A stretch of DNA of 59,440 nt from Desulfocapsa sp. (GTDB lineage Bacteria; Desulfobacterota; Desulfobulbia; Desulfobulbales; Desulfocapsaceae): positions 1 to 59,440 of the forward strand of contig JAFLJS010000015.1 in assembly GCA_022712895.1 (NCBI GenBank), read 5' to 3'. The notes below the pieces were generated by a model, which searched no databases, was not told the origin of the DNA, and saw nothing but the letters and a program-made list of their open reading frames with translations. Position 1 is the first letter of the stretch; each line of letters opens with the position of its first letter. The translations under genes and the position numbers were made by a program. Below are positions 1 through 43,750 of the stretch, in pieces.

Positions 1-754
1 CAGCCACATTCCAATATTTTTCAAACTGTTCGCCGTCAGGATATCCGATCCCCGTCAAATAGTTGATAAGCGCGTCAAACTAGACATAGGTCACAAATTT
101 GTCATCAAAGGGAAGTGGAATTCCCCAGGTGAGCCGTGAAGTTGGCCTCGAAATACAGAGATCTTCAAGGGGCTCACTCAAAAAAGAGAGTACTTCATTA
201 CGATAACGCTCAGGAGTAATGAATTCAGGGTTGGCATTGATATGATCAAGTAACTCCTGCTGATATTTAGACATTCTGAAAAAGTAATTCTGCTCAGTAA
301 TCTCATTGGGTACCGTTAGATGATCGGGACATTTACCACCGACCAGCTCTTTTTCTGTGAGAAAACGTTCACAACCCGTACAGTACAGCCCCGTATATTT
401 ATCAAAATAAATATCACCCTTATCGTACACATCCTGCAAAATTTTCTGCACGGTTGCCACGTGATCAGGATCGGTGGTACGGATAAAGTTGTCAGGAACA
501 ATATCTAGGCCAGGCCAACTCTCACGAAACATGGCACTGATACGATCGACATACTCCTTTGGGCTGACACCTTCTCTGTCAGCTGCTTCTACTATTTTAT
601 CACCATGCTCATCGGTTCCTGTCTGAAAACGTACATCGTCATCAGTCAGCCGACGAAACCTGCTGTAGGTATCAGCGACGATAGTGGTGTAGGCATGCCC
701 CAGATGCGGCTGAGCATTTACATAGTAAATCGGAGTAGTTATATAGGTTGTCAT
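1..754 (-). CDS. metG: Methionyl-tRNA synthetase, 5' part, with in-frame amber codon
   Basis: MetRS charges tRNA-Met with methionine in the cytoplasm. The N-terminal catalytic core is clear: [16 protein letters not shown] with the HLGH form of the HIGH signature (residues 8-23), then the CTGCE...KCPDH zinc-knuckle region and the TWGIPLPFD segment. Reading stops after 224 residues at a TAG (80..82), exactly where the family has the Trp of the conserved TYVWFDAL block. The same frame then continues open to the window edge as [16 protein letters not shown] and on to YWNVA, which is ordinary MetRS sequence. So a single TGG-to-TAG change (or sequencing error) interrupts an otherwise intact gene. 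The KMSKS loop lies beyond the left edge. The start overlaps the stop of the upstream ricT-like gene by 4 nt, so the two are translationally coupled. Identity is certain; whether the gene is functional is not. Confidence 0.93.
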
Positions 755-1626
755 GATTCCTGTTTCTTTTCTGTTTTCTTTTTCTTTTCTGGCCGGATTA
801 TTTCTGCACGTTTCCAGTCTTCAGCGGGCAACAGGTGCTGTTCCCCTTCCTCATCAACCACTAGAACTGTGCGCTGCAGAGGGTTTTGTTTCCTCACCCG
901 GTAACGTTTGCCATCCAGTTGCAAAGTTTTTCCTGGCCTGGGCATTCCCCGTCGTTCCAGTTTGTATGTTTCAAACTCATAGGTCAGACAACAGAGGAGT
1001 CGGTTACAGACCCCTGATATTTTAGCAGGATTCAAAGGAAGATCCTGCTCTTTCGCCATCTTGATGGAGACCGATTCAAACTTCTTCATATAGCCGGAAC
1101 AGCACAATTCGCGACCACACATCCCCAGCCCGCCCAGCATTTTCGTTTCGTGTCGCACGCCAACCTGCCGCATCTCGACCCGGGTTCTGAATTCCTGGAC
1201 AAGGTCTTTAACAAGGGCTCTAAAATCAACACGTTTGTCAGCAGTAAAGTAAAAAACAATTTTACTTCCGTTAAAAAAACGTTCCACACGCACAAGGCGC
1301 ATCTGCAGGCCATGTTTGGCAATGAGTTTCTTACTGGTACTAAAGGCAGACTCTTCTTCACCAGGTATTTTCTCGTAGCGTTTGCACTCCTCATGAGTTG
1401 CCCGACGTGCCAGCTCATAACTCGCCTTACGTTCACAATTCGAATCACGACACGCTGGTGCGGTAGCCACTACACAGGCTGGTTCCAGCCCGTACTCGCC
1501 GCGTACCATAGCCACTTCATCCTTCCGCAAATCTTTGAGGGGAGACGAGGCAGTGAATTGTTGTCCTCCATCGCGAAAGCGGATACGATAAAAATACAGG
1601 AGATTATCTTCTTTGGATTCTTCCAT
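751..1626 (-). CDS. ricT: PSP1-domain protein, RicT/YaaT family
   Basis: A 291-residue protein with the cysteine-rich PSP1 C-terminal signature: [15 protein letters not shown] followed by [13 protein letters not shown]. These cysteines are family hallmarks; in Bacillus the homologue RicT/YaaT joins a complex that carries Fe-S clusters and affects RNA processing and phosphorelay. An additional N-terminal pair (ACRDSNC) is present. The C-terminal 60 residues are lysine- and arginine-rich, ending in a KKKKTEKK tail. It sits between holB (8-nt gap) and metG (4-nt overlap), a holB-PSP1-metG order common in bacteria, so co-transcription is very likely. Its function in Gram-negative anaerobes is not established. 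Family assignment is firm, cellular role is inferred. Confidence 0.88.
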
Positions 1627-1634
1627 AATCGGTT

Positions 1635-2606
1635 CTAAATAGTTAGATGAAAGAGCAGCACTTCACAAACGAGTGTACGATTACAATTTCTCGAGAGCTC
1701 TTTTTCAGCACGGTCTATCGCCTCTAACTTAGCAAAATATTGTTGAGGATTCCACTCTTTCCGTGTCACAGGACTTTCAGCCCCTTCTGCACAACCATTG
1801 ATCGCAACAAGGCTGTCTCGCAACCAGAGCCGTATAAGGCCCAGAAAATGTGGCAAATCTTCTTTTAATACAGCCATACTCTCTGCCATAAGCAACAGTC
1901 TTCCAGTCTCTGCATCTTTACAGCTACTGGAATCGGCAAGAAGCGTAATAAGCGATTCCCGCAATGCAATCAACTTCTTCTGATGCAGTAACAAGGCCTT
2001 CCCAGGACTTCCCTCACTTAGGCGAGCCAGCAAGACTGCCATTTGCTCATCCATCTCTTCTTCCCGGGCCAGCAATATGCTTGTGGTTTCTTCAACCGTG
2101 AGAGGATAAAAAGGAATTGACTGACATCTGGAAAGTATGGTCTGCAAGACGTTCCCCGTGGAGTCAGCCGTCAGAATCAGAATGTTGTTCGCTGGCGGTT
2201 CTTCCAATGTTTTTAAAAGGGAATTTGCCGCCTCCTGGCGCATGGTGTGCACATCTTCCACCAGCACCACCCGAGTTTCCGCCTCGTAAGGTGCAAAGGA
2301 GAGCTTTTTAATAAGCTCACGCACCTGGGCAATCTTTATGGCACCCTTTTCGGGTGACACAAGGAAAAAATCCGGGTGCATACCAGCGGCCATCTTCTTA
2401 CAGGAGCTACAGACACCACAACTTTCCAGCCCCTCACTCGCACTGCAATTTATGGCAGCTGCAAACTTTCTGGCAAACAATTGTTTACCAATACCGCCAG
2501 GCCCCTGAAACAGATAAGCATGGGCAAGACGATCAGCGGCAAGACTTCTTGAGATGAGTTTATTAGCCTGTTGCTGGCCAAGCAACTGTTGCATCCCGTT
2601 TTTCAT
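1635..2606 (-). CDS. holB: DNA polymerase III delta' subunit
   Basis: Clamp-loader subunit of the replicative polymerase, 323 residues. Visible motifs in order are a Walker A-like loop GPGGIGKQ, a zinc module CGVCSSCKKM, a Walker B-type strand RVVLVEDVH, the LLKTLEEPP motif and the sensor-1/SRC region ILSRCQSIPF. These are the standard AAA+ signatures of HolB/DnaX-like proteins; the short length and single HAYLFQGPGG start favour delta' over gamma/tau. The gene starts 7 nt after ychF ends and precedes the PSP1 gene by 8 nt, so ychF-holB-ricT-metG reads as one minus-strand operon. Confidence 0.9.
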   Translation of the reverse strand: MKNGMQQLLGQQQANKLISRSLAADRLAHAYLFQGPGGIGKQLFARKFAAAINCSASEGLESCGVCSSCKKMAAGMHPDFFLVSPEKGAIKIAQVRELIKKLSFAPYEAETRVVLVEDVHTMRQEAANSLLKTLEEPPANNILILTADSTGNVLQTILSRCQSIPFYPLTVEETTSILLAREEEMDEQMAVLLARLSEGSPGKALLLHQKKLIALRESLITLLADSSSCKDAETGRLLLMAESMAVLKEDLPHFLGLIRLWLRDSLVAINGCAEGAESPVTRKEWNPQQYFAKLEAIDRAEKELSRNCNRTLVCEVLLFHLTI

Positions 2607-2613
2607 CAGGTGA

Positions 2614-3711
2614 TCACACGTTGAAGCGAAAGTTCAGACAATCTCCATCTGCCACCACATACTCTTTCCCTTCCGAACGCATCAGCCCTTTATCTTTGGC
2701 CCCACTCTCCCCATCACAAGCCACAAAATCTTCATAGGCAATGGTTTCCGCCCGGATAAATCCACGTTCAAAATCAGAATGGATTTTACCAGCTGCCCCC
2801 GGTGCTTTTGTCCCTTTTGTAATAGTCCAGGCCCGGGTTTCTTTTTCACCAACGGTAAAATAGGTCAGCAGACCAAGAAGCTCATAACCGGCGGCGATCA
2901 AACGATTCAGGCCCGGCTCTTCCATTCCCATATCTTCCAGAAACTCCTGCTGCTCTTCGGCATCAAGCTGACTCAACTCCTGCTCAATGGAGCCAGCAAT
3001 AATAACGACTCTATCACCATCTTCCGTTGCCAGTTTTTCAAGCGTGCGGACAAAATCATTGCCGTCTATTACATCATCATCCTGCACATTGGCTACATAG
3101 AGAACGGGTTTGTCGGTGAGCAGCGTAAGATCTTTCATCAGCTCCTCTTCCATATCCCCATCTCTTTCAAGATTTCTGGCTGTTTTGCCTTCGTCGAGAA
3201 GATCACGGAGTTTTGCTAAAAAAACGGCCTGTGCCTTAAGGGTTTTATCTCCGGACTTGGCAAGACTCTCTGCTTTTTTCAGTCGTTTTTCCACCGTATC
3301 CAGATCCGCAAGAATCAACTCCATGATAATAACGTCGCGATCACGGGCTGGGTCAATACTGCCATCAACGTGGACAATATTTTCATCCTCAAAACAGCGA
3401 ACCACATGCACAATGGCATCCACCTGACGAATATGCCCTAAAAACTGATTGCCAAGTCCTTCGCCCTGGCTGGCACCTTTGACAAGACCCGCAATATCCA
3501 CAAATTCCATCTGTGTTGCGACCTTATTCTTGGTTTTAGCCATTTCAGCCAGTACATCCAGACGTTTATCAGGAACAGGGACAATGCCCACATTTGGTTC
3601 AATAGTACAAAAAGGATAATTCTCAGCATCTATCCCTGCGGCTGTAAGCGCATTAAAAATCGTGGACTTTCCAACATTTGGAAGCCCTACTATACCACAA
3701 CAAAAACCCAT
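2614..3711 (-). CDS. ychF: Redox-regulated ATPase YchF (Obg family)
   Basis: OLA1/YchF P-loop ATPase that binds ribosomes. The protein starts with [17 protein letters not shown], the family N-terminus with its P-loop, followed by the G2/G3 region and the NVQD motif where GTPases have NKxD, consistent with ATP preference. The C-terminus is a TGS domain ([17 protein letters not shown] to the NFRFNV end). The frame is open 32 codons further upstream, but the ATG at 3711 gives 365 residues, the family length, and has a GGAG ribosome site 8 nt before it; the longer version has no support. Its upstream region runs straight into a palindromic repeat. Confidence 0.95.
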
Positions 3712-4004: not shown

Positions 4005-5324
4005 ATGCATACCCCTTCTCGACTCTCCAAAGTACTGATAAGCAACGTCACCCTTGCTACAAGCCCGAGAACTCCTTTATTACACGGTCAATGGTTGCTG
4101 ATTGAGGGAAACACCATTCATTCCTTCGGTGAAATGGAAGAGATCCCTTCGACACCTGACGCACAGCATATTGATGGAACAGGAAAAATAGTCATGCCGG
4201 GCTTAATCAATGCACACAACCATTGTGCAATGAGTCTCTTCAGGGGACTAGCTGATGACCTTGAATTAAGTGAATGGCTCAATGAGCACATTTTCCCTGC
4301 CGAGGCCAACAATGTAACTCCTGAAATGGTATACTGGTGTTCAAAACTGGCCGCTGCGGAGATGATACTGTCCGGAACAACCACCGTCGCTGATGGATAT
4401 TTTTATGAAAACCAGGCAGCACGTGCCTTTTTAGAGACAGGTATGCGGGCTGTGCCTGCCCAGGGGATTATCGACTTCCCCGCTCCCGGAGTGCCTGATC
4501 CCACAAAAAACATTGAAGCGGCAGAAAATTTTCTTCAGGAATGGCAGAACAGGGATCAACGAATAACACCAGCACTTTTTGCACATTCTCCCTACACCTG
4601 TTCACCTGAAACGCTGCAACGGGCAAAAGCTTTGGCCCAAAAATACCACACCACCTTTTTTATCCACGCCGCCGAAAGCAGACATGAGCAGCAGATACTC
4701 CTCAACCCCCAGGGCAGCAGCCCCATCAAACACCTTGCAGCACTTGAGTTGCTCGACAATGAAACCGTTCTCATCCACGGCATATGGCTTGACGACGCAG
4801 ACAGGGAGCTTATCAGCAAAAGCCTGGCAGGAATTGTCATCTGCCCCAGCTCCCACTTCAAACTGGCATCAGGAATAGCAGAAGTTCCAGAAATGGAACA
4901 ACAGGGAATACGAACAGGTCTGGGAACAGATGGCTGCGCCAGCAATAACAACCTGGATATGTTCCAGGAAATGGATCTGCTTGCGAAAAGCCAGAAGCTG
5001 CGAACACTTGACGCTACAGCATTACCAGCAAGCCACGCGTTAAGAGCAGCAACAACTGGTAACGCAGCGCTCTTAGGACTTGATAAAGTAGGTAAAATCG
5101 CCACAGGCTATAAGGCGGACCTCATCCTGCTGGACATGCAGCAACCCCACCTCCAGCCCTGCTATTCCCAGGATTTTCTGGTATACAATGCTACTGGAGC
5201 TGATGTGGAAACGGTAATTATAAACGGAGATATCGTACTCAAAGAACGAGAATTCACGTCCCTTGATGTGGAAGAATGCATGGCCGAAGTACGGACACTG
5301 GCCCGCACATTCGGCGCATTATAG
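4005..5324 (+). CDS. mtaD: Amidohydrolase, SAH/MTA deaminase-like (MtaD/SsnA/TrzA family)
   Basis: A 439-residue metal-dependent amidohydrolase of the group that deaminates S-adenosylhomocysteine or 5'-methylthioadenosine. Metal ligands can be placed: H71 and H73 in NAHNHCAM, H221 in FFIHAAESRHEQ, and D309 in GLGTDGCASNNNLDMF; H258 in VLIHGIW is a probable catalytic His. The C-terminal GYKADLILLDM strand closes the composite beta-sandwich formed with the N-terminus. The ATG follows an AAAGGA site. It stands alone between ychF (divergent) and topB (convergent, 33-nt gap). Substrate cannot be fixed from sequence; related TRZ/ATZ enzymes use other aminated heterocycles. Confidence 0.82.
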   Translation: MHTPSRLSKVLISNVTLATSPRTPLLHGQWLLIEGNTIHSFGEMEEIPSTPDAQHIDGTGKIVMPGLINAHNHCAMSLFRGLADDLELSEWLNEHIFPAEANNVTPEMVYWCSKLAAAEMILSGTTTVADGYFYENQAARAFLETGMRAVPAQGIIDFPAPGVPDPTKNIEAAENFLQEWQNRDQRITPALFAHSPYTCSPETLQRAKALAQKYHTTFFIHAAESRHEQQILLNPQGSSPIKHLAALELLDNETVLIHGIWLDDADRELISKSLAGIVICPSSHFKLASGIAEVPEMEQQGIRTGLGTDGCASNNNLDMFQEMDLLAKSQKLRTLDATALPASHALRAATTGNAALLGLDKVGKIATGYKADLILLDMQQPHLQPCYSQDFLVYNATGADVETVIINGDIVLKEREFTSLDVEECMAEVRTLARTFGAL

Positions 5325-39791: not shown

Positions 39792-40493
39792 ATGACATAC
39801 ACAATCGCAATCGTTGAAGACGATGAGAACCTGCGCAATAACTATGTACAAGCTCTGCAACGAGACGGCTACACAGTAAACAGTTACGATTCACGAACCG
39901 TTGCCAGCAAGGCATTTTCACGGCAGCTTCCTGATCTTGCTATCCTTGATGTGATGCTACAGGATGAGATGGAAGGCGGCTTTGAACTCTGTCGGGAACT
40001 ACGAAATCGTGCTCCCAGCCTGCCCATTATCTTTCTCACCGCCAGGAATTCAGATCTTGATCGCGTTTCAGGATTGCGTCTTGGAGCCTGGGATTATCTG
40101 ACAAAGGACACCACCACTCTTGATTTCCTGCCTGTCCGGATTTCAGCTCTTTTTAAGATGCTGGAGACTATCAAAGGCACTGCCACCCAGGCAAGTGAGA
40201 CAGTGATTGAACACGACAGTGTACGCATAGAAGAAGAACGGAAACGGGTTACCTGGAAGGGAGATACCGTCAGTTTGACCCTTACCGAATTCTGGCTCCT
40301 GACATCTCTTGTCAAACATCCGGGCCACGTTAAATCCCACGAGCAACTTATGGATGCGGCTCAGGTTGTGGTCACGAATAATGCCATCGCCGCTCATGTG
40401 CGGCGTATTCGTGAGAAGTTTCGAGAGGTCGACCCGGAGTTTGATGCTATCTGTGCTGAGTATGGCATGGGCTATCGCTGGCTCGAAAAATAG
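39792..40493 (+). CDS. pdsR: Response regulator of the dedicated sortase system (OmpR type)
   Basis: A 233-residue regulator. The receiver domain has the acidic pocket (VEDDEN), phosphoacceptor D53 in LAILDVMLQDEMEG and a conserved K in DYLTKD. The C-terminal OmpR-type winged helix reads LTLTEFWLLTSLVKHPGHVKSHEQLMDAAQ...NAIAAHVRRIREKF. The MLQDEMEGGFELCR segment is characteristic of the response regulators that accompany proteobacterial dedicated sortases. It is followed after 6 nt by its kinase. I assign it by recognition of the family, not by a search; the sortase and target genes are at 15.3-18.0 kb, not adjacent. Confidence 0.82.
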   Translation: MTYTIAIVEDDENLRNNYVQALQRDGYTVNSYDSRTVASKAFSRQLPDLAILDVMLQDEMEGGFELCRELRNRAPSLPIIFLTARNSDLDRVSGLRLGAWDYLTKDTTTLDFLPVRISALFKMLETIKGTATQASETVIEHDSVRIEEERKRVTWKGDTVSLTLTEFWLLTSLVKHPGHVKSHEQLMDAAQVVVTNNAIAAHVRRIREKFREVDPEFDAICAEYGMGYRWLEK

Positions 40494-40499
40494 GCAGAG

Positions 40500-42611
40500 A
40501 TGCGTATCTCACTCCGCCTGAAACTCACCCTTATCTCACTCCTCTTATTGCTAATTCCGCTTATCGGCTTTCGCTTCAGCGCCATGTTGCAGGAAAATCT
40601 ACTGGCTAGCCGTGAAGATGCACTGATGTTCACGGCTAGAGCTGTAGCCACAAGCCTTGGCAACCGCCCTGATCTTTTTGACCAGGAATTTTTCCATTCC
40701 AAAGATCAGAACCGTGATCTCTATCTCTTCAGCCTCTCAAACAGTATTCGCCTCAACGGTAAGGCTGATGACTGGCAGCCGGAATTAAGTCAGAGTGAAG
40801 AATTCGGTGCCGAGCATCTGCTCAGCTCACGCGACCGCTACAATCCAGCATCACTTCGTTTCAACCACCTGCTTGGACAACGTGGAAAATATCTGTATGG
40901 TCTCTTTCAGGTACAGGATGACCATATTGTGTACCGCCATCCAAACTCCCTGTATCCTTCCAAGGCAGACCATATTCAAATTGGCATCCAGGATGCTTCT
41001 GGAACCGTAAGTAAATATATACTGGCCACAGACAAACCGGGCTGGATAAATGGATTCCTGATGGATAGCAACCCTGAAAACCTGATTCCTGTTGCCAACG
41101 AGCCCCGAATCCAGGGCGTCTGGGCCGAGACCGAAAAAGGGTATATCGTCGAAATGCGTATGCCCCTGTCCATGGTGAGTAACCGTCTCTCCTTTGCAGT
41201 GGCTGATGTGGATGATGCAAAAAGTAGAGTGATCGAAAATCTGATAGGCACAGCTACTCCCGGACAAACTGGAGAGCTCGGCTGGTTACTAGCGCCGTCA
41301 AAACAGATTGAGACCCTGCTTGCCAAGATGGATCTCCCCCACTCGCGTATTCGCGTGGTTGATGAAAACCGGCGGGTTCGTGCCCGATTTGGCAAACTAC
41401 AGGAAGAGAGCCGGCAGGAGAGTTACTCCCACCGCTTCCTGGCGCCTATTTATCGCCTCTTTACCGAGGCATTCACTGAAGACTTCAAAGACTCAAGCCA
41501 GGCAAAAACTCTTGATATCCAAGGAGTTGAAGAAGGGCTACAGGGGAACCCCAACATAACTCACTATCAGATGGCCAATGCCAACGTAGAAGTGATGGCC
41601 GCCATCACCCCACTCTTCAATGACGGTGAAGTGGTTGGCGCAGTTGTTGTGGAACAGACCACAAACTCTATCCTCGCCCTCAAAAACCGGATAATTGAAG
41701 AATCCATCACCTTCACCATTGTCTCCTTTATGAGTATCGGACTCGGCCTGCTCCTCTTTGCATCCCGCATTTCCAGCCGTATTCGCCATCTTCGTAATCA
41801 GGCGGGCAGTGCCATCAGCAAAGACGGTCGTATTGTCTCGAATATTGATCCAGTAAGGGCAAGGGATGAAATCGGCGACCTGAGCCGTACACTGTCCACC
41901 ATGCTGGATCAGCTACAGGAACAGAACAAATACCGGGAAACCATGGCTGACAATCTGGAGCATGAGATGCGAACGCCCCTTGCCGGGATCTCAGCTTCCC
42001 TCAAAAATCTGGAAAAGGAGCTAAAGGCTCCATCCAAACAGGTGCAAGACTATATGGCTTGGGCCTTAACAGATGTACAGCGCATGGAATCTCTGCTCAC
42101 TGCCATTCGTGATGCGACAACTCTTGAGCAAGCGCTACAACAGGACTACATGGAAGAATTCGACCTGGCCAAGGGCCTCACCCTGTGGCTGGAACGGGGC
42201 TGGCTAATCCAGTATCCTGATGTGACGTTCATCTTGCACCTCCCCGAAGAAAAGCCAAACATTCAGGGCGATGCCTATCGGTTACGACAAATGATAGAAA
42301 AGCTCGTCGACAACGCAGTTTCATTTCACACCCCCAAAACCCCAATCATTTTGTCTCTTACAAAGGAGGATAATCTCCTTGTATTACGGGTTTCCAACCA
42401 GGGGCCAGAAATAGCAAGCGACAAGCAGGGACAAATATTTAACTCCATGGTCTCTTTACGAAGCCGAAAGAAATCAAGCCCTCACCTGGGACTGGGCCTT
42501 TACGTTGTGCGTGCCATCACCCACCACCATAAAGGAACCGTCCGCGTCGAAAATCTTACCGGGGAAAAGAAAGGCGTCTGCTTTATTATCAACCTGCCGG
42601 CCTGCCTTTAA
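40500..42611 (+). CDS. pdsS: Histidine kinase of the dedicated sortase system
   Basis: A 703-residue sensor kinase. One membrane helix at the start (LTLISLLLLLIPLIGFRF) is followed by a large periplasmic part of almost 380 residues. It contains a CBM9-like section (SLSNSIRLNGKADDW; YLYGLFQVQDDHIVYRHPN) and a second region around 280-390. Helix 2 (about 402-421) leads to a HAMP region and the dimerisation helix with H488 in LEHEMRTPLAGI. The ATPase domain follows (DNAVSFH; LGLGLYVVRAI). The length and the periplasmic domain match the kinases of the sortase system. It may detect a sugar or a cell-envelope glycan. Starts 6 nt after the response regulator gene. Confidence 0.82.
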   Translation: MRISLRLKLTLISLLLLLIPLIGFRFSAMLQENLLASREDALMFTARAVATSLGNRPDLFDQEFFHSKDQNRDLYLFSLSNSIRLNGKADDWQPELSQSEEFGAEHLLSSRDRYNPASLRFNHLLGQRGKYLYGLFQVQDDHIVYRHPNSLYPSKADHIQIGIQDASGTVSKYILATDKPGWINGFLMDSNPENLIPVANEPRIQGVWAETEKGYIVEMRMPLSMVSNRLSFAVADVDDAKSRVIENLIGTATPGQTGELGWLLAPSKQIETLLAKMDLPHSRIRVVDENRRVRARFGKLQEESRQESYSHRFLAPIYRLFTEAFTEDFKDSSQAKTLDIQGVEEGLQGNPNITHYQMANANVEVMAAITPLFNDGEVVGAVVVEQTTNSILALKNRIIEESITFTIVSFMSIGLGLLLFASRISSRIRHLRNQAGSAISKDGRIVSNIDPVRARDEIGDLSRTLSTMLDQLQEQNKYRETMADNLEHEMRTPLAGISASLKNLEKELKAPSKQVQDYMAWALTDVQRMESLLTAIRDATTLEQALQQDYMEEFDLAKGLTLWLERGWLIQYPDVTFILHLPEEKPNIQGDAYRLRQMIEKLVDNAVSFHTPKTPIILSLTKEDNLLVLRVSNQGPEIASDKQGQIFNSMVSLRSRKKSSPHLGLGLYVVRAITHHHKGTVRVENLTGEKKGVCFIINLPACL

Positions 42612-42784: not shown

Positions 42785-43750
42785 ATGAAACGTTTCAAGA
42801 ACATCCTCTTTGTGACCAGCCCCACAGGGGACAACAAGGTTTCTTTTCAACGAGCAGCAAATCTGGCTGCCCATAACCAGGCCAAGTTGACAGTGATGGC
42901 CGTACCTGAAGACCTCCCCGTCCAAGCAAGATTTCATATGGCAGGTGATGCATCCGCAAGAATCACCAAAGGGGTGCTCAATCATTACCGCAACCAACTC
43001 GTAGAACTGAGTGCAACCTCTCAACAAAAGATCGAGATACTAAACAAAGTCATTCCCGGTACTCCTTTTCTGGAAATCATACGAACCGTTCTCCACGATG
43101 GACATGATCTAGTCATCAAAACGCCACAACCGCAGCACGGACTGAAGGAATTGTTGTTTGGCTCAACAGACATGCACCTCCTTCGTAAGTGCCCCTGCCC
43201 GGTGTGGATGATCAAATCCGATGAAATCCCCCCTTACAGACGTATCCTGGCTGCCATAGATCTGGAATCCTCAGACGATGACGCAAGACGTGACGACCTC
43301 AATCTGCAGATTCTTGAAATGGCCTCTTCCCTTGCCCTCTCTGAACCGGGGAAGCTGCATATCGTAAACGCATGGCAGGCTGTGGGAGAGAGCCTGGTAA
43401 CGATGAATCTGGATCTGAACAAAAAGGAACTCAACGCCTGGTTAGATGACCATAAGAAGGCTTTCGAAAGTGAACTGGACACCTTTATGACCACCTTGCC
43501 TAAAATAATAGGTCAGGAAGGAGCAGAGTACATTGCTCCCCAGATACATCTGATCCGCGGAAGTGCTGAGAAAGTTATCCCACAACTGGCCGAAGAGGAA
43601 CAGATGGATCTGCTTGTTATGGGGACCGTTGCCCGAACGGGCTTAGCAGGGTTCTTCATGGGGAATATTGCAGAAAGTATCTTAAACCAGATAAACTGCT
43701 CTGTACTTGCCCTCAAGCCTTCCGGGTTCTGTACTCCTGTGACCATTTAG
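42785..43750 (+). CDS. Tandem universal stress protein (UspE-like)
   Basis: A 321-residue cytoplasmic protein with two UspA domains, residues about 1-145 and 150-310. The second has the nucleotide-binding signature GTVARTGLAGFFMGNIAESIL; in the first, the corresponding stretch KTPQPQHGLKELLFGSTDMHLL lacks the usual Gly pattern. Such tandem forms are linked to stress survival, and the ATP-binding half may be the regulatory one. GGTG lies at a suitable distance before the ATG. It precedes the antiporter cluster by about 150 bp and might be co-regulated with it, though this is a guess. Confidence 0.85.
   Translation: MKRFKNILFVTSPTGDNKVSFQRAANLAAHNQAKLTVMAVPEDLPVQARFHMAGDASARITKGVLNHYRNQLVELSATSQQKIEILNKVIPGTPFLEIIRTVLHDGHDLVIKTPQPQHGLKELLFGSTDMHLLRKCPCPVWMIKSDEIPPYRRILAAIDLESSDDDARRDDLNLQILEMASSLALSEPGKLHIVNAWQAVGESLVTMNLDLNKKELNAWLDDHKKAFESELDTFMTTLPKIIGQEGAEYIAPQIHLIRGSAEKVIPQLAEEEQMDLLVMGTVARTGLAGFFMGNIAESILNQINCSVLALKPSGFCTPVTI

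Follow-up and report, generated by a model that had tools for sequence, protein, structure and literature searches.

In-frame TAG at a conserved tryptophan codon of a Desulfocapsa metG coincides with a contig break and is very probably absent from the working gene

Methionyl-tRNA synthetase (MetRS), encoded by metG, is as a rule an essential enzyme, and three lines of earlier work bear on a stop codon found within its gene. According to PMC8165550, the tryptophan of the VWFDA-type motif closes over the methionine, and W253 and Y13 of the Xanthomonas type 2 enzyme switch rotamer upon methionine binding. PMC8318568 describes the recoding of UAG as pyrrolysine in the trimethylamine methyltransferase of deltaproteobacteria, with the Pyl genes being present. 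Concerning the assembly of genomes, PMC10914622 states that assemblers can refuse a join owing to a single erroneous read or to few reads of a strain variant, and that MEGAHIT leaves an overlap of maxK at contig breaks, with a k list ending in 141.

Here, we analyzed a stretch of 59,440 nucleotides (the window), which represents the complete contig C49 of a Desulfocapsa sp. genome of 3,681,847 bases in 75 contigs. The relevant features, located at the left edge of the window, are as follows:

1-80, no strand assigned: stretch shared without mismatch (80/80 bases) with the terminal 80 bases of contig C42 (C42:27023-27102)
1-79, minus strand: metG codons 226-251, with no stop before the contig edge; contig C42 has the complete run of codons 226-643
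80-82, minus strand: in-frame TAG at metG codon 225 (letters CTA on the plus strand; the deviating base is window position 81)
83-754, minus strand: metG codons 1-224, N-terminal catalytic part of the methionine--tRNA ligase (NF008900 positions 5-227)

The metG frame starts at 754, meets the TAG directly after codon 224 and then continues with 26 open codons up to the contig edge. A sequence-only reading of the window had described an amber codon at 80-82 in a metG frame open to the edge, and both its letters and its frame are as it stated. It had also claimed that the family has a tryptophan at this site, in agreement with the codon TGG in 79 of 80 relatives (loci from named GTDB genomes), the remaining one being not scorable. 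In other words, the assembled window shows TAG instead of the tryptophan of the VWFDA motif, for which all 79 scorable relatives have TGG. In view of the shared motif, residue 225 is presumably the counterpart of W253. The missing tryptophan codon in the assembled metG is judged to be an artefact. Upstream of metG and on the same strand, a ricT (YaaT family) gene with a 4-base overlap and a holB gene occupy window positions 751-2606. A search with Rfam at the gathering threshold gave no match within the window.

The remainder of the gene is located on a second contig. A profile search of the contigs resulted in 12 PF09334 matches in the genome, among them the C49 and C42 pieces of metG; the second-best match lies at the very end of C42, where metG extends from the last base of codon 225 through codon 643 to a TGA. 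The C49 piece covers positions 5-227 of the NCBIfam family NF008900 and the C42 piece positions 229-647 of 648; each alone scores below the whole-protein cut-off of this family, as expected for a half. Combined, the two pieces amount to 643 codons, the same length as the metG of the closest named relative (L018, Desulfocapsa sp. MAG GMC10.metabat2.188; 94% over the N-terminal piece), which is itself 100% identical to the metG of G104, a genome with the same genus label as that of the window. In comparison with L018, 211/224 residues of the C49 piece (dN/dS 0.028) and 371/418 residues of the C42 piece (dN/dS 0.047) are identical. Both pieces are under strong purifying selection and represent a single, strongly constrained metG with one lesion. 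The other PF09334 matches, in frames of 840, 894, 954, 500 and 560 codons on C12, C40, C24, C48 and C29, respectively, are taken as other synthetases, in line with the PF00133 and order-level searches, and no second intact metG was found with the PF09334 profile and a DNA search of the genome's contigs. A pseudogene backed by a second metG, as considered in the sequence-only reading, is not supported, since these searches yielded a single metG in two pieces that are both constrained.

C42 terminates at window position 80, one base short of the deviating base, and is silent on position 81; therefore, the gene-breaking base 81 is the first base supported by C49 alone. The next-best DNA match of window positions 1-300 in the same genome has an E value of 0.148, and no contig carrying the alternative base at position 81 was found in this genome. 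We compared both ends of all 75 contigs (146/150 ends usable), counting joins from 20 bases up, and observed exact 141-base overlaps between ends in 19 cases. Among the mutual one-to-one joins of at least 20 bases, 15/16 overlap by exactly 141 bases, one of which connects both ends of a single contig, and C42-C49 alone overlaps by 80. All remaining overlaps in the range of 20 to 140 bases concern ends that have multiple partners, i.e. repeats, and one further end overlap of 19 bases falls under the 20-base limit of the join count. With an overlap of 80 versus 141 bases, the C42-C49 junction is irregular for this assembly. The reading frame is fully open through the join in 6/15 of the other one-to-one joins, which is uninformative. 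As a matter of after-the-fact arithmetic, the chance of a given base being the first past a contig end, if unrelated to it, is about 146 in 3.68 million, and that of lying in the terminal 141 bases about 1 in 141. The low odds of such a coincidence between TAG and break strongly favour a common cause.

Altogether, we consider it very probable that the TAG is a contig-edge artefact (an error in the reads or in their assembly) or a minority allele and that the working metG does not have it. The assembler divided the gene between C49 and C42, and at the break C49 carries one deviating base at position 81, turning the tryptophan codon into TAG. One possible explanation could be that the reads disagree at this position, with a sequencing error or a minority allele making the k-mer graph branch; alternatively, position 81 may be covered by few reads, an erroneous one of which set the base. 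The reads at this position are thus presumably either in disagreement or scarce, and the organism itself presumably carries tryptophan at codon 225. Too few reads linking base 81 to the bases left of the window would be expected to give an overlap of 80 instead of 141 bases. The assembly was probably made by MEGAHIT. Of the three options put forward from the sequence alone, namely a sequencing error, a pseudogene with a second metG and a readthrough or suppressor case, the sequencing error fits best, base 81 being the first past an irregular junction, and the searches gave no support for the other two.

As a general trend, TAG behaves as an ordinary stop in this genome. Within 166,542 bases, 118 ORFs of at least 150 amino acids were counted, with TAA as the stop in 53, TGA in 39 and TAG in 26 cases (metG included), which means that TAG terminates 25/117 of the other ORFs of this size. 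RF1 is present (532.8 bits against a cut-off of 423.25) and has no internal stop. A reassignment of TAG was rejected on the basis of this usual stop function and of RF1. That TAG ends several genes of the window had already been noted from the letters alone and is borne out by three of them:

4005-5324: amidohydrolase ending in TAG
39792-40493: response regulator ending in TAG
42785-43750: universal stress protein ending in TAG

At least 80 open codons follow the stop in 2/24 scorable long ORFs ending in TAG, 6/53 ending in TAA and 0/39 ending in TGA. Both TAG cases are separate gene pairs (response regulator/histidine kinase and ribulose-phosphate 3-epimerase/phosphoglucose isomerase), and a general readthrough of TAG was rejected on these grounds. 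At window positions 39792-42611, the histidine kinase gene begins two codons after the TAG of the response regulator in the same frame, and a mechanical scan reads the two as one frame of 900 codons. PF00005 (ABC-transporter domain) matches in the genome are free of internal stops in 71/72 cases, the remaining one showing a TAG. This match is a fragment of an ABC-transporter ATPase close to the end of a contig (L300 635-907, G000:C63:19071-19343) with the in-frame TAG in the signature motif; the N-terminal third of the domain is missing, and the fragment looks like a decayed gene.

In addition, we searched metG at the level of the order, where 256/257 genomes matched metG or a relative of it. 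Among the 150 matches listed, which include neither the genome of the window nor G106 of the same genus, 149 are free of internal stops and a single TAG occurs in the remaining one (hand count). The latter belongs to G100, likewise a member of the genus, in which metG (L295, G100:C218, locus 1501-3444) shows one in-frame TAG mid-contig at a Glu codon (VPD*ITEENYFF, with the asterisk for the stop). This site corresponds to the Glu of VP(D/N)EITE in the neighbours and is not the tryptophan site. The G100 gene is otherwise open and approximately 80% identical to the metG of L018, and no stop was found in the other G100 synthetase stretches matched by PF00133. One G108 match in the PF00133 search contains a TAG; it begins upstream of metG, and the metG match of G108 has no stop. 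Among the RF1/RF2 matches of relatives, 6/49 show one internal stop, and these are taken as matches running beyond the gene end. In-frame TAG codons in metG are found in 2/19 genomes of the genus with metG seen (that of the window and G100). Two such codons in one genus, at different positions, are unexpected, and the contig-edge explanation does not cover the mid-contig TAG of G100.

A real nonsense mutation, by which metG would be freshly broken in the strain or substrain while methionylation is provided by an unassembled copy or by other cells, appears unlikely. The TAG is indeed present in the assembled sequence, and a fresh mutation would leave the remaining gene conserved, as observed. 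However, the genome has a completeness rating of 100% and yielded no second metG, an essential enzyme would be lost, and the TAG would coincide with the contig break by accident. The same coincidence would have to be accepted if UAG were translated, through a suppressor tRNA or near-cognate decoding, to yield full MetRS, which we regard as very unlikely. The frame is open and conserved on both sides of the TAG, and G100 provides a second in-frame TAG in a metG of this genus, though at a different codon. Against this stand RF1 and the use of TAG as a terminator described above, as well as the results for pyrrolysine and for tRNAs. The best match to PylRS in the genome reaches 29.5 bits against a cut-off of 178.15, which a Methanosarcina control passes, none of the 19 genomes of the genus has a PylRS over the cut-off, and the Pyl-containing methyltransferase MttB has no match in the genome; the Pyl system was rejected accordingly. 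Among the 35 tRNAs found after scoring 150/169 first-look candidates, an incomplete set without tRNA-Tyr and others, none has a CUA anticodon and one is a tRNA-Trp (CCA). The suppressor option of the sequence-only reading finds no support in these results, although a suppressor tRNA may have been missed in so incomplete a set.

Two further variants have even less in their favour. The genus might tolerate UAG in metG by low-level readthrough, for example by a near-cognate tRNA-Trp, with UAG limiting the level of MetRS, which we consider more doubtful still. It is scarcely conceivable that translation starts anew behind the TAG to give a MetRS of two chains: both pieces are conserved, but the cut would remove the pocket tryptophan itself, and 149/150 matches listed at the order level have no internal stop. 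Should the TAG prove genuine, a bacterium with no detected Pyl genes would naturally suppress UAG within an essential synthetase, which would be very surprising. Returning to the contig-edge artefact or minority allele as the preferred reading, the present case cautions that a stop in an essential gene can fall exactly on an assembly break, and a comparison of contig ends within the same genome reveals such break-linked stop codons quickly.

As in the pyrrolysine recoding covered in PMC8318568, the UAG of this locus is in frame and belongs to a genome of deltaproteobacterial type; unlike there, the codon replaces the tryptophan of a housekeeping enzyme, and neither a PylRS over the cut-off nor MttB was found in the genome. 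The breaks treated in PMC10914622 differ from the C42-C49 junction in that its overlap is 80 bases and not the expected maxK, and in that a competing contig was not found in the genome. On the other hand, as at the breaks of de Bruijn-graph assemblers described there (COBRA), an exact overlap is common to the two contig ends, breaks being located at non-unique joins, and the 141-base overlaps of the 15 other one-to-one joins correspond to the last k of the MEGAHIT list quoted in the same text. With regard to the known metG family (NF008900), both pieces match along the family length, and the codon at the contig break is the only one that sets this metG apart in kind from that of the relatives.
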